40,995 bases of DNA from a virus, in IMG/VR virus record IMGVR_UViG_3300024265_000113, positions 1 through 40,995 of that record. The stretch is one strand, 5' to 3'. Position 1 is the stretch's first letter; the number at the start of each line of letters is the position of its first letter. The notes below the pieces were generated by a model that saw only the letters and a list, made by a program, of their open reading frames with translations, had not been told where the DNA came from and ran no database searches. Both the position numbers and the translations under genes were made by a program. Of the stretch, positions 3,831 to 20,133 are shown one piece after another.

Positions 3831-3841
3831 TTAGTTGGTGT

Positions 3842-3849
3842 GGTACAAT
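3842..3849 (+). promoter_or_regulatory. Extended -10 promoter TGGTACAAT driving a structured RNA
   Basis: TGG plus TACAAT (3844-3849) is an extended -10 element with no good -35 box. The same TGGTACAAT occurs before the small terminase (7772) and the gp7-like gene (20126). Transcription would start near 3855, just ahead of the structured RNA. Confidence 0.6.
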
Positions 3850-3855
3850 GGTTTT

Positions 3856-3957
3856 GTTGATTGGCGTGGAATCCAAAAGACACTAGATAAGGTTTAGTTA
3901 GTAGCTGGGGTAAATGTCACTTACCCATTCCACCAGTTACTAGACTAAGCCTTTTTT
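3856..3957 (+). ncRNA. Candidate structured phage small RNA with possible pseudoknot and intrinsic terminator
   Basis: The sequence lies between an extended -10 promoter and a T-run. A 20-bp arm at 3889-3908 pairs with 3933-3953 (one bulged G, G-U pairs allowed). Inside it GGTAA (3909-3913) pairs with TTACC (3921-3925). The unpaired seven-base bulge CATTCCA (3926-3932) is complementary to TGGAAT at 3867-3872 in the 5' leader, so a pseudoknot could form. The 3' arm runs straight into TTTTTTATT, making the whole fold an intrinsic terminator. No credible reading frame is present. An alternative reading is a transcription attenuator for the Lar-like gene downstream. The pairings are seen in the sequence; function is unknown. 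Confidence 0.65.
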
Positions 3958-4297
3958 ATTGCCTCAGTTTTACGTCAAGATTTATCCTAGCTACACACTT
4001 CATCAACAAAACGTGATTATTCATGCAGAATAAAAATGCAATTAACACAAAGTCCAAGCACTGACCCGCCATGTCAACTTGGCCCCATCATGAAACTCTA
4101 TGAGTGTCAGCGTTATTTATAACGACCGAGTAATCGGGTTAGGGGATCAATTAGTACCTATGGATTGTTATTTGGTCCATATTTAACTAGATACACGCTT
4201 TGCCAGTAATGGTTAAGTCCTTTAGTTAACTAGCTGTGTAGGTATCAGTTAGGGGGAAATGGCTTACTGATCCACAAACAAAATTAAAGGTTAAATT
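3958..4297 (+). other. Gene-free leader with several stem-loops upstream of the Lar-like gene
   Basis: I find no reading frame longer than 16 codons with a ribosome site. Visible pairings are CCAAG/CTTGG around TGAC/GTCA (4053-4081), CCGA/TCGG (near 4126-4138), TATGGA/TCCATA (4159-4181), GTTAA/TTAAC (4212-4230) and ATCAGT/ACTGAT (4244-4270). TTAACTAG occurs twice (4183, 4226). The region may be a long 5' leader, part of a larger structured RNA, or remnant DNA. The Shine-Dalgarno AAAGG near its end serves the next gene. Confidence 0.35.
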
Positions 4298-4621: not shown

Positions 4622-5239
4622 ATGCATATAGAGATAAAGGCAAGTGAGCAGTCAATATCTAGAAGGAAGTTGATATTCGGAGTGGCCACTAATGATGCAT
4701 GGTACAGGGTGGTACTGAAGGTTAAGGGGGTAAAAACAAGATGCCCGTACTATTCAAGATGGCTCAGTATGATTGCGAGGTGCTATTACGATGACGGAGG
4801 GGGAATAAGAGAGGCATACAAAGGGTGCTCGGTGTGCGATGAGTGGCTAATGTTTAGTAACTTCAGGTCATGGATGAAGATGGAAAGGTGGGAAGGTTTG
4901 GAGCTTGACAAGGATATAATTAAACCTGGCAATAAAATTTACTCGCCAGAAAGCTGCTGCTTTGTCAGTAAGAGACTTAACGGCCTATTGGTTGGCGCTA
5001 TTGGCGCAGAAAGTAGATATAAGGGGTTTAGATTTATAGTCGAGCTTGGTAAGTATCGAGCGGTAATAAGGGATTGCGGAAAGTCATTGTATATTGGCGA
5101 CTTTTCCACGGCAAAGCAAGCTAGATCTGAGTACGTAAAAATGAAGTGTAATTTTTTAAAGCGAGAGATAGCTAAGTGCGATAATCCATCGGTAGTGGCT
5201 GGGCTCTTGTCTCATATTAAAATAATGAAACAGGAATGA
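4622..5239 (+). CDS. Homing-endonuclease-like protein with AP2-type DNA-binding domain, copy 1 (205 aa)
   Basis: The central part carries the signature RW-x2-MI-x-RCY, VCDEW, FRSWM, LDKDI, PGNKIYSPESC, FVS and LN, which is typical of phage HNH-like endonuclease proteins. It is followed by an AP2-like DNA-binding stretch (about 135-170: KYRAVI, GKSLYIGDF, TAKQA). Such genes are usually mobile and cut intron-less or gene-less sites. A relative with the same layout sits on the other strand at 29674. Start ATG 4622 has only a weak ribosome site. It ends three bases before the next gene and seems to be an insertion between a duplicated start region. Confidence 0.75.
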   Translation: MHIEIKASEQSISRRKLIFGVATNDAWYRVVLKVKGVKTRCPYYSRWLSMIARCYYDDGGGIREAYKGCSVCDEWLMFSNFRSWMKMERWEGLELDKDIIKPGNKIYSPESCCFVSKRLNGLLVGAIGAESRYKGFRFIVELGKYRAVIRDCGKSLYIGDFSTAKQARSEYVKMKCNFLKREIAKCDNPSVVAGLLSHIKIMKQE

Positions 5240-5242
5240 CAA

Positions 5243-6493
5243 ATGAACAATTTTACTTACGAGAATACGAAAGACGCGACGCACTTTATTGGTGGGGAAT
5301 TTAAAAAAATAATCACAGGGAATAATCCTCAATGGTTATATGTAGGGGGCAATCCTGGGTTTAGCTGGATGATGTCCAGCTATAGTAATAAATATCTACT
5401 CAGTTGCGAAAGCATTATCGAGCTATCCCGCTCACACAACGAAACCCGCGAATACTGGACAACTAACGACGTAACACAATACGCACAGGGGAATAATATG
5501 AATAAAGATGAAATGCTACCAATCTCATACGTTAAGAAGATCACGCCGTTGGTTGCGGGTGATGGATGGGCCGACTCAAGCGGCAGGTCAGGAATCATTA
5601 ATAGTGGAAATATAGGAGGCTTTAACGATGATGATTGCTGTCGTAGTAAATGCTTCATAACATCATTCGCAGACCGCCCAAACACAGGTAAGCATCCAGT
5701 GGGTGACGATGTGGTTGTTGATTGTATTCTTCGTAACGGTAAACCACCGGCTGAAAATGATAACAGGATTGCTAGAGGCTTTAATTGGGGTATTAAAACA
5801 GAGTTCTCTAGCGACGTAATATCATGGAAACCCAACAAAGACGCCATGCTAAAACAATACCAAGCAGAGCAGCTAGAGCAAGGTGTTCATATTGATGATG
5901 ATGGCGATTTAGCTGTAGGAGCTGAAAAGGTTGGTGTTGCCACTAAAGAGGTTAACGCAGCTACAGCACTTTACGCTTTCGCTGGCTGGCTAACATCAAT
6001 GAGGGAGCCTATAACATTTAGCTCAGGTCACTGGGCCACCCCTGCCGCCGATATGGTCGGAGCATTTATTAACTTGAACAATCTTGCTGATGTCATTGAT
6101 TTTGATTCTGTAAAGACGCCAAGCGATTCAATTATCCCTAAAGCGCTAACAAATGAATCGGAAGACGATGGGCTGTCAACCGTAGAAACCCCAGCATTCA
6201 CACAGGGAATGAAAGATTCTGGCAGTCGGTTAACTATCGGCATGCATTACTTAGATGATAGCGGTGATCGATGTGAGTATGTCGGAATTAGCGCGTCAAA
6301 TATTATTGGTCGATATGTTGATATGAATAATGTTCGTTCTGATCACCTTAGTATTTCAGATGGTGATGACATCAAGCCAATCCAGACAGACGAAGACAAG
6401 ATTCGCAACATTTTAACTAATGCTTTAATTCCGGTGTTCGTTGTTAATTATTTACTAGATAACAATGAACTAACTATTCAATTAAAGGAGTAA
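5243..6493 (+). CDS. Conserved phage protein of unknown function, 416 aa
   Basis: The first third is rich in aromatic residues and Asn. The best recognisable part is YAFAGWLTSM followed by FSSGHWATPAADMV and NNL (about residues 244-283), a motif seen at the end of many phage accessory proteins, perhaps a small partner-binding domain. The Cys-rich stretch DDDCCRSKC lies near 130. No catalytic motif is recognised. ATG 5243 follows AGGAATGAC. It heads a block of tightly packed genes up to 7447. Confidence 0.65.
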   Translation: MNNFTYENTKDATHFIGGEFKKIITGNNPQWLYVGGNPGFSWMMSSYSNKYLLSCESIIELSRSHNETREYWTTNDVTQYAQGNNMNKDEMLPISYVKKITPLVAGDGWADSSGRSGIINSGNIGGFNDDDCCRSKCFITSFADRPNTGKHPVGDDVVVDCILRNGKPPAENDNRIARGFNWGIKTEFSSDVISWKPNKDAMLKQYQAEQLEQGVHIDDDGDLAVGAEKVGVATKEVNAATALYAFAGWLTSMREPITFSSGHWATPAADMVGAFINLNNLADVIDFDSVKTPSDSIIPKALTNESEDDGLSTVETPAFTQGMKDSGSRLTIGMHYLDDSGDRCEYVGISASNIIGRYVDMNNVRSDHLSISDGDDIKPIQTDEDKIRNILTNALIPVFVVNYLLDNNELTIQLKE

Positions 6494-7447: not shown

Positions 7448-7454
7448 TTGAATG

Positions 7455-7463
7455 TGTTACAAT
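7455..7463 (+). promoter_or_regulatory. Extended -10 promoter TGTTACAAT
   Basis: TGT plus TACAAT (7458-7463) lies 21 bases before the ATG at 7484. It is a member of the recurrent TGTG(G/T)TACAAT series in this genome. No clear -35 box. Confidence 0.55.
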
Positions 7464-7766: not shown

Positions 7767-7771
7767 TATGT

Positions 7772-7779
7772 GGTACAAT
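7772..7779 (+). promoter_or_regulatory. Extended -10 promoter TGGTACAAT for the terminase operon
   Basis: TGG plus TACAAT at 7774-7779 lies 31 bases before the small terminase ATG, directly after a terminator. The ATGTGGTACAAT context is shared with 3842 and nearly with 20126. This is a good candidate late promoter. Confidence 0.6.
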
Positions 7780-7809: not shown

Positions 7810-8292
7810 ATGGCTAACACTAGAGCAACAAAAACCACCCTAAAGAAGGGTGATAACTTACCGCCAAGGGGTAAGGCCAAAAAGACGTTAATGCTTGACG
7901 CTATCAGGTCTGTGTGCGGCAATGAGGAAGATTTCCTTAAACAGGTGGTATCTATAGGTCTTGGTGGGTGGACCAAGCCAGAGCCTAAGGAAGGAGAAGA
8001 ACCGGTTGAGCCGATATTCCAAACCCCCAACCCTGTATTGTTAACTTTAATTTTAAACAGAATAGAACCTCCTCTTAAGTCGGTTTCTCCGAATGTTGAA
8101 TTCAAATTTAGAAAGGGAGCCAAGCCGCACGAACAAGCCTGTGATGTTATGTCAGCCATAGCTAAGGGCAATATACCAAGCGATATAGGGGGTATGTTTA
8201 TAACAAGCATTCAATCAATGTTAAAGATACAAGAACTAACCGACTTCGAAGAAAGACTAAAGGCGATAGAAGATGCTAGCAAGCAGGATTAG
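7810..8292 (+). CDS. Terminase small subunit (P22 gp3-like position)
   Basis: This 160-residue protein has nearly the length of P22 gp3 (162). It has a basic N-terminus (KKTLKKG, RGKAKKT), a helical middle, and the C-terminal helix ending FEERLKAIED that is common in small terminases of this type. It should bind the packaging site and hand DNA to the large subunit. The gene directly precedes and overlaps TerL by 20 bases. The ribosome site is weak, within a doubled AAGGCATT. In P22 the pac site lies inside this gene; I cannot point to it here. Confidence 0.8.
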   Translation: MANTRATKTTLKKGDNLPPRGKAKKTLMLDAIRSVCGNEEDFLKQVVSIGLGGWTKPEPKEGEEPVEPIFQTPNPVLLTLILNRIEPPLKSVSPNVEFKFRKGAKPHEQACDVMSAIAKGNIPSDIGGMFITSIQSMLKIQELTDFEERLKAIEDASKQD

Positions 8293-9943
8293 CCGGCTCA
8301 ATAAGCTTGAAAGCGAAGTTATGTTTTCTCAAGGTGAATTCAATAAAACGGTAATAGGGTTTGTCAATCCAGAAACCAAGTTATTAACTAGCACCTATCA
8401 CTTAGTTGGCAAGACATGGACGCCAACAATAAAAGAGCCGTCTGCATTTTTCCCCGAAGTTGTAAAGCCAATGTTTCTAAGCCCTAAAAGATTCATGGCA
8501 TTAATAGGTGGTCGAGGCTCAGGGAAAACATTAGTCGAAGGCGATCATGGTTTGATTAACATGCATGACCTTGGGCGGAATATGATGTGCATTCGTGAAT
8601 TTCAATCGTCAGTTGCCGATTCCGTTCATGCTGTGCTTAGCTCTGAAATATCAAGGTTAGAGTTGGACAACTCCGACACCACAGAAAGGACAATTAAGTT
8701 TACCCACAACAATGCAATGGCCCGCTTTATGGGTCTAAGTAGAAACCCTGAGTCGGTCAAGTCTGCGTTTGGTTTCCTAGATTGGTGGGTAGAAGAGGCT
8801 CAATTCTTAAGTGAAAAATCGTTAAGGGTGTTAACTCCGACGGCGCGAAAAAAACCAAAGCGCGGGTTACCTGGTAAGCAAAAAGAAATAGAAGTTAATG
8901 AGGTTGACATGGAAGACGTTAGAATGGTCTTTTGTGCCAACCCCGCATCGAGTGAAGATCCATTTAGCCAGCGCTTTATAGTTCCATTTGTTGAAGAATT
9001 AGATAGTAAAGGCATTTATGAAGATGATTTACACTTAATAATTAAAATGAATTGGTCTGACAATCCCTGGTTTGAAGAGTCGGGGCTAGAGGCTGAAAGG
9101 CAATTCGATTTAAAAAACTTACCTAGATCAACTTATGATTGGGTGTGGGAAGGCGGATTTAATGACGACATTGAAAACGGACTTATCAAACCTGAATGGT
9201 TCGATGCTTGCGTTGATGCCCATATCAAACTAGGATTTAAACCATTCGGTGTAACAAAGGTTACTCATGACCCGTCAGATTTGGGTGGAGACCCTAAAGC
9301 AACACTAGTTAGGCGTGGCAATGTGATAACCAACGTTATGCAGCGCACGGACTTGGATGTTAACGACGGCAGTGATTGGGCTCTAGGCGTGGCAATTAAC
9401 GAAGCTGCCGACCATTACGAGTGGGACGTGGGCGGGATGGGCGTAACCCTTAAGAAGGACGTTAACGCCGCCTTAGCTGGCAAGAGTATGGGCGTTCACC
9501 AATTCAACGGCGCATCAAAGGTTGATCACCCAAATACAATATACGAGCCGTCCGGGGCGTCAAACGTTGTTAAGCAAATGACTTGGGATCAAGTTTGCTA
9601 CAATTTACGCGCTCAATGTTACTTGAAGATTAGGGAAAGAATATTTAGAACATACAAGGCCGTGACTGAAGGTGTCATGACCGACCCTGATAATCTGATA
9701 TCTTTCAGTTCTGAATGTGAAAACCTAAAAACATTAAGGTCTGAATTATGCAGAATGCCAATCAAGCCAAGGTCAGATGGAAGGTTTGAGCTGTATACTA
9801 AAAAAGAGATGCGAGAAAAGTTTAAGGTGCGTTCACCTAACTGTTCTGACGTGCTGATGATGTCTGAGCGCATACATGGTATTATTAACCAAATAAACAG
9901 GTCTCACAGGCCTAAACCGCGCAAACCTATGGGGCGACGATAA
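8273..9943 (+). CDS. Terminase large subunit (P22 gp2-like)
   Basis: This 556-residue packaging motor has Walker A GGRGSGKT at 79-86, Walker B FGFLDWWVEEA at about 167-176 with the catalytic Glu, and coupling motif CANPAS near 221-226. A C-terminal RNase-H-like nuclease domain begins with THDPSD (331-336) and includes later acidic residues, for example near NCSDVLMM. It translocates DNA into the prohead and makes headful cuts. ATG 8273 overlaps the small subunit gene; a downstream ATG at 8321 is an alternative. It is longer than P22 gp2 (499). Confidence 0.96.
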   Translation: MLASRISRLNKLESEVMFSQGEFNKTVIGFVNPETKLLTSTYHLVGKTWTPTIKEPSAFFPEVVKPMFLSPKRFMALIGGRGSGKTLVEGDHGLINMHDLGRNMMCIREFQSSVADSVHAVLSSEISRLELDNSDTTERTIKFTHNNAMARFMGLSRNPESVKSAFGFLDWWVEEAQFLSEKSLRVLTPTARKKPKRGLPGKQKEIEVNEVDMEDVRMVFCANPASSEDPFSQRFIVPFVEELDSKGIYEDDLHLIIKMNWSDNPWFEESGLEAERQFDLKNLPRSTYDWVWEGGFNDDIENGLIKPEWFDACVDAHIKLGFKPFGVTKVTHDPSDLGGDPKATLVRRGNVITNVMQRTDLDVNDGSDWALGVAINEAADHYEWDVGGMGVTLKKDVNAALAGKSMGVHQFNGASKVDHPNTIYEPSGASNVVKQMTWDQVCYNLRAQCYLKIRERIFRTYKAVTEGVMTDPDNLISFSSECENLKTLRSELCRMPIKPRSDGRFELYTKKEMREKFKVRSPNCSDVLMMSERIHGIINQINRSHRPKPRKPMGRR

Positions 9944-20109: not shown

Positions 20110-20125
20110 TAATTACGCTATGTAT

Positions 20126-20133
20126 GGTACAAT
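20126..20133 (+). promoter_or_regulatory. Extended -10 promoter TGGTACAAT before ejection genes
   Basis: TGG plus TACAAT (20128-20133) lies 27 bases before ATG 20160. The nine bases are identical to the elements at 3842 and 7772. It allows separate expression of the ejection proteins and tailspike. Confidence 0.6.

Follow-up and report, generated by a model that had tools for sequence, protein, structure and literature searches.

GOLLD is a large structured RNA of phages that lies near tRNAs, has a variable 5′ part and sometimes holds a tRNA within it (PMC12286853). ROOL, an ornate phage-encoded RNA of unknown function, is located near tRNA islands (PMC12286853). In the Vibrio phage ICP1, an abundant noncoding transcript of about 800 nt arises from an unannotated gap near the lysis genes and is likened by its authors to GOLLD and ROOL (PMC7567579). 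The element described here belongs to a virus record of 40,995 bases, analysed at full length and called the window, with phage genes such as a lysozyme (719-1144) and a large terminase (8273-9943). It sits in a 467-base gap between the end of a phrog_1273 gene (3830) and the start of a Lar-like gene (4298). No open reading frame of at least 40 amino acids was found within 3842-4297 on either strand. A preliminary description had proposed a compact RNA of about 100 bases at 3842-3957. Its coordinates are correct to within one base, as read directly from the sequence; its unit is the 5′ module of a conserved noncoding RNA of about 410 nt, reaching from 3856 to approximately 4266.

The element resembles GOLLD in being phage-encoded and near tRNAs (L088, L107, L089, 1.085.O and 242E40-1; none in the window). 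Unlike GOLLD, it is shorter and has exchangeable 3′ modules and a kissing-loop 5′ module; the GOLLD pattern, in which a single 3′ region is conserved and the 5′ region varies, does not apply to it. The architecture of ROOL is different as well. The GOLLD model (RF02032) matched none of six records at E <= 10. The ROOL model (RF03087) gave the same result, a weaker test since the control genomes were equally empty. By these models, the element is a member of neither family. Apart from tRNAs, Rfam gathering matches were absent from the window, L086-L089, L107, L110, L116-L123, L125 and L126, in line with the earlier statement that no known family could be recognized. No description of this RNA family was found in the main texts of open-access papers. 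The searched stretch of ICP1 (L106) contained no module. BLAST searches of phages and plasmids with the window element gave no real match, and relatives were obtained by scanning IMG/VR for exact conserved patterns and afterwards by covariance models. The features are collected in Table 1.

Table 1. Positions in the window of the promoter, helices and modules assigned to the element.
Feature	Position and sequence	Strand	Basis or partner
Extended -10 element TGTGGTACAAT	3839-3849, hexamer TACAAT 3844-3849	+	sequence, homologues
P1 hairpin	UUGG 3861-3864 / CCAA 3873-3876, 8-nt loop CGUGGAAU 3865-3872	+	fold
Kissing strand 1, GUGGAAU	3866-3872	+	partner 3927-3933
P3 stem, 5′ strand	3890-3907	+	type I alignment
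Apical hairpin, 6 bp	3908-3913 with 3921-3926 (whole 3908-3926)	+	covariation
Kissing strand 2, bulge AUUCCAC	3927-3933	+	covariation and permutation
P3 stem, 3′ strand	3934-3952	+	fold and type I alignment
U-run (T6), terminator-like	3952-3957, directly after P3	+	homologues
P0 3′ strand	4002-4012, pairs with 3851-3861	+	11-bp perfect inverted repeat
J hairpin UUAUUC[AUGCA]GAAUAA, junction to 3′ module	4017-4033	+	both-side stem changes
3′ module type A, conserved noncoding	4043-4266	+	90-95% identity in L086, L087, L088, L089

The RNA of 3850-3960 folds with -36.5 kcal/mol, against -22.6 +/- 3.5 kcal/mol for shuffled sequences (z = -4.0; none of 200 equally stable). The long main stem P3 and the inner hairpin had been noted before with arms displaced by at most one base. 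P3 is AU-rich and encloses a pseudoknot; at other loci it comprises 15-21 bp. The leader TGGAAT (3867-3872), described as complementary to a bulge, forms part of the loop of the small hairpin P1, which the preliminary description lacked, and the cross-pairing extends to 7 bp (GTGGAAT with ATTCCAC). Counterparts of P1 at other loci are GUGG/CCAC, GCAG/CUGC and GUAG/CUAC. The window represents type I of two related 5′ modules; in the second, type II, a related start module, D0, comes first.

The earlier proposal had been made dependent on compensatory changes in homologues. These were found, with pairing kept through double base changes. All cells of the 35 pairs in the type I alignment are standard pairs (100%), six pairs showing double changes; none of 500 shuffles matched this, and a one-base slide left at most 49% paired. 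The kissing contact keeps all seven pairs in this alignment, with both sides changed in three, and both sides are changed in three of the six pairs of the apical hairpin (GGGUAA/UUACCC to UGAUGA/UCAUCA to UGGUGA/UCACCA). The window has the kissing version GUGGAAU/AUUCCAC, others have GUCGGAA/UUCCGAC, and independent versions occur in the later loci Vibrio 1.131.O (GUGAAAG/CUUUCAC) and 1.178.O (GUGAGAUG/CAUCUCAC). A kissing pair of 6-8 bp was present in 16 of 16 loci, six of which (L119, L127-L131) had played no part in setting the pairing rule. Reassignment of partners reached the observed total in 0 of 100,000 permutations; this and the other permutation tests take no account of common ancestry, and some samples contributed several loci. 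The covariation establishes the loop-bulge pseudoknot as genuine.

In D0, it is the P4 loop that contacts the P1 loop, with 6-8 bp at every locus. P3 is crossed by a second helix, P2, which is paired in nine loci, absent from the covariance model and without a direct counterpart in the window. Reassignment among these nine loci, with shared descent ignored, reached the observed totals in 3 of 20,000 cases for the kissing contact and in 1 of 20,000 for P2. By shuffling, P2 is weak in L089, L128 and L131. Some of the strands of P2, P6 and J were assigned manually.

The proposed promoter of the element itself held up. An extended -10 sequence (TGGTACAAT) is read at 3841-3849, one base longer than the 3842-3849 noted before, and normal promoter spacing leads to an expected start site near 3856. 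Taken by itself, the match in the window is not above chance (1 found versus 2.4 expected). It becomes convincing because the -10 hexamer is kept in the homologous modules with the same spacing in type I: of 19 modules, 18 have TA[TCA]AAT no more than 45 nt upstream of P1, versus 7% of background stretches, and the distance of the -10-like hexamer is identical across all six type I copies. The 11-mer TGTGGTACAAT is found again ahead of the small terminase gene (7769-7779), and the intergenic places with this sequence or a one-mismatch version are 7769-7779, 7453-7463 and 20123-20133. One TGTGGTACAAT-like site directly follows a terminator-like hairpin that precedes the small terminase gene; L002 and L003 keep it as TGTGGTATACT.

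As in an intrinsic terminator or attenuator, the P3 stem directly precedes six U. At least five T follow P3 in 18 of 19 homologous modules, in agreement with the T-run reported for the window. Unlike such a terminator, the long AU-rich stem surrounds a pseudoknot, and the flanks fold across the U-run. With loops limited to 8 nt, a simple terminator scan missed the site on the + strand. The idea that the leader-bulge pairing switches the terminator by simple competition fails, since this pairing and the P3 strands have no bases in common. The U-run may cause partial termination or have a structural role in the pseudoknot, and the element possibly acts as an attenuator.

The two 5′ modules combine with at least four 3′ modules. 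Pattern scans of IMG/VR yielded L086, L087, L088 and L089. A scan with 5′ motifs led to L107 and L110, and their 3′ motif to L111; in these three, the same 5′ modules are joined to a different 3′ module. The combinations are I-A (window, L087), I-B (L110, L111), II-A (L086, L088, L089) and II-B (L107). At other loci, B, C or D replaces 3′ module A. The four have no evident sequence relation and interchange behind the same 5′ modules. Module C is common to L116, 1.131.O, HS2, BS5, K30 and 14E30.2, and module D to 1.054.O, 1.178.O, 1.276.O and 242E40-1. Two of the four loci from the type I pattern scan (L108, L109) were unrelated DNA, and an 18-mer scan of genome contigs gave 16 matches, none convincingly similar outside the pattern.

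A D0 covariance model detected a diverged element in L116 (76 bits, E 6e-14). BLAST with the latter matched 87 phage records, some by short matches only; the match in Escherichia phage 121Q was judged to be chance. The model confirmed D0 in the Vibrio phages NF, 1.054.O, 1.275.O, 1.085.O, 242E40-1 and BT-1011 and in Pseudoalteromonas HS2 and BS5. Type I was confirmed in 1.131.O (29 bits); in 1.178.O it was placed by sequence reading, with a weak D0-model match. The homologues occupy gaps, mostly without annotation, in Vibrio, Pseudoalteromonas and uncultured phages. A plasmid search found no module. Covariance model R3 found none in 369 genomes of one bacterial class, a weak negative obtained under strict filters without a positive control.

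Further structured sequences were observed in these records and in related gaps. In the L116 record, the type II hairpin occurs a second time (L009 1743-2030); this copy has a large insert and is immediately followed by a ribosome binding site and an early gene. In the Vibrio phages K30 and 14E30.2 (L122 and L126, 1249-1690), a third, unrelated 5′ domain precedes 3′ module C and consists of two interleaved helices, CUUGACGGGA/UCCCGUCAAG and GGUAAUGCAUUUUGG/CCAAAGUGUGUUACC. Aeromonas Lahexavirus phages (L123, L124, L125, approximately 1263-2049) have a gap of about 780 bases, unannotated in two of three records, which looks like another large structured RNA. This gap and the L116 hairpin insert have the motif CTAGGTAAGTGGG...TTTGC.GAATA in common.

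HNH or homing endonuclease genes are located nearby in the window, L088, L110, K30, 14E30.2, 1.178.O and BT-1011. Those adjoining the element lie at 4622-5239 in the window, 4727-5350 in L110, 5367-6005 in L088, 1084-1623 in L130 and 1167-1565 in L129. From this proximity, the endonucleases may drive module exchange. In terminase-based synteny, the nearest relatives of the window were fragments that stop short of the site, with the exception of a tail in L003. The contig end of L003 (positions 1-110) shows the tail of 3′ module A in diverged form (TTAGTTAACTAGATGTGTAG), followed directly by a homologue of the window gene at 5243. Because module A directly precedes this gene in L003, the arrangement suggests that the Lar and HNH genes of the window are insertions.

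Conservation in L086-L089 continues to window position 4266 at 90-95%, while the flanking genes are mostly less alike or different, and the downstream part is at least as conserved as the 5′ module. Within the inverted repeat P0, the portion expected in the transcript pairs 3856-3861 with 4002-4007, past the T-run. Counterparts are present in L087, L110, L119 and L130. In D0 loci, helix P6 joins the 5′ end to bases past the U-run (98 of 50,000 permutations, shared descent ignored). The stem of the J hairpin changes to UAACC/GGUUA in L088 and to UAAUC/GAUUC in L086. Module A holds a GNRA-type hairpin, CCGA[GUAA]UCGG (4126-4137); its internal structure is based on few changes. Since the 5′ end also pairs past the U-run through P0 and P6, the long RNA is probably a functional product.

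The tRNAs take different places. In L088 and L107, D0 is separated from the type II hairpin by a tRNA-Trp and a tRNA-Tyr, respectively; visual inspection alone pointed to another tRNA-like sequence in L107. The hairpin of the L089 element itself houses a tRNA-like sequence (6310-6424; Rfam 33.6 bits) with intact D and T arms and an anticodon loop enlarged by about 45 bases. Given this long insert in the anticodon arm, it is unlikely to function as a tRNA. The Vibrio breoganii phage 1.085.O encodes tRNA-Trp and tRNA-Arg directly 3′ of the U-run, and 242E40-1 has a tRNA as well. No tRNA was found in the window.

These downstream parts also bear on whether the 5′ module is self-contained, as a regulatory RNA of about 100 nt or a leader attenuator of the downstream genes, the conserved 3′ sequence being a separate element. 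The U-run is kept in 18 of 19 modules despite strong divergence, and a given 5′ module occurs with different 3′ modules. In Vibrio phage BT-1011, D0 stands alone and a gene starts directly after the U-run; the long RNA is therefore not made everywhere, and the start module can, by this arrangement, act by itself. As a general account, the self-contained module is nevertheless rather unlikely: P0 and P6 tie the 5′ end to bases past the U-run, 3′ modules come after a 5′ module where loci were read completely, and the tRNAs of 1.085.O directly follow the U-run.

The explanation considered probable, with some reserve, is a 5′ module of a modular structured noncoding RNA of marine Gammaproteobacteria phages that works as follows. 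Transcription from the extended -10 promoter would start near 3856. P1 would form immediately at the 5′ end of the RNA and, through its loop, make a kissing contact with the apical region of the following hairpin; the domain would be closed by P3 just ahead of the U-run. There, a fraction of the polymerases probably terminate, releasing an RNA of about 100 nt. The remaining ones would read on into an RNA of at least 410 nt, whose extreme 5′ end pairs past the U-run (P0, or P6 in the other subtype) and encloses it; in other phages, the enclosure would also take in tRNAs or a stem-loop. Next would come the junction hairpin and then a 3′ module, drawn from several exchangeable ones. By analogy with proposals for GOLLD and ROOL, the long RNA may be structural or tRNA-carrying and made during infection.

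The compact fold also invites comparison with the put RNA of phage HK022, a compact structure at the start of the transcript that is not known to carry a terminator-like U-run of its own. On this analogy, the folded 5′ module would stay on RNA polymerase as a factor-independent antitermination RNA and let it pass downstream terminators. The module likewise lies at the very start of the transcript and has two hairpins with a tertiary contact, and the conserved downstream structures require read-through. It is longer than put and possesses its own U-run, which makes antitermination of this kind improbable. A DNA-level element, such as a recombination or homing hotspot or an origin with inverted repeats that merely resemble RNA, would fit the frequent module exchange between phages and the neighbouring HNH or homing endonuclease genes of the window and several phages; it is highly improbable in view of the G-U pairs tolerated in the helices on the + strand, the promoter at fixed spacing, the tRNAs on the same strand and a loop-loop covariation with no evident DNA counterpart.

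Sequence comparison establishes the element as a conserved, structured and modular RNA with a true loop-bulge pseudoknot. We infer its transcription, termination at the U-run and a role like that of GOLLD or ROOL; a function as cage or tRNA carrier is suggested by analogy. The best reading is a new GOLLD/ROOL-like class of phage RNA with a kissing-loop front end. A wider proposal is possible and offered tentatively: an undescribed, widespread RNA system of cassette-like exchangeable modules (a kissing-loop start, optional tRNAs or a stem-loop, a variable hairpin and one of several ornate 3′ modules), possibly spread by homing endonucleases, whose fold would hold or present tRNAs during infection. 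GOLLD and ROOL are large, ornate and abundant phage RNAs with no known function. A compact class in cultured Vibrio and Pseudoalteromonas phages offers ready-made comparisons on the role of such RNAs, namely module swaps, solitary copies and tRNA-bearing versus tRNA-less versions. The family also accounts for unannotated gaps, several hundred bases long, that recur in the genomes of marine phages.
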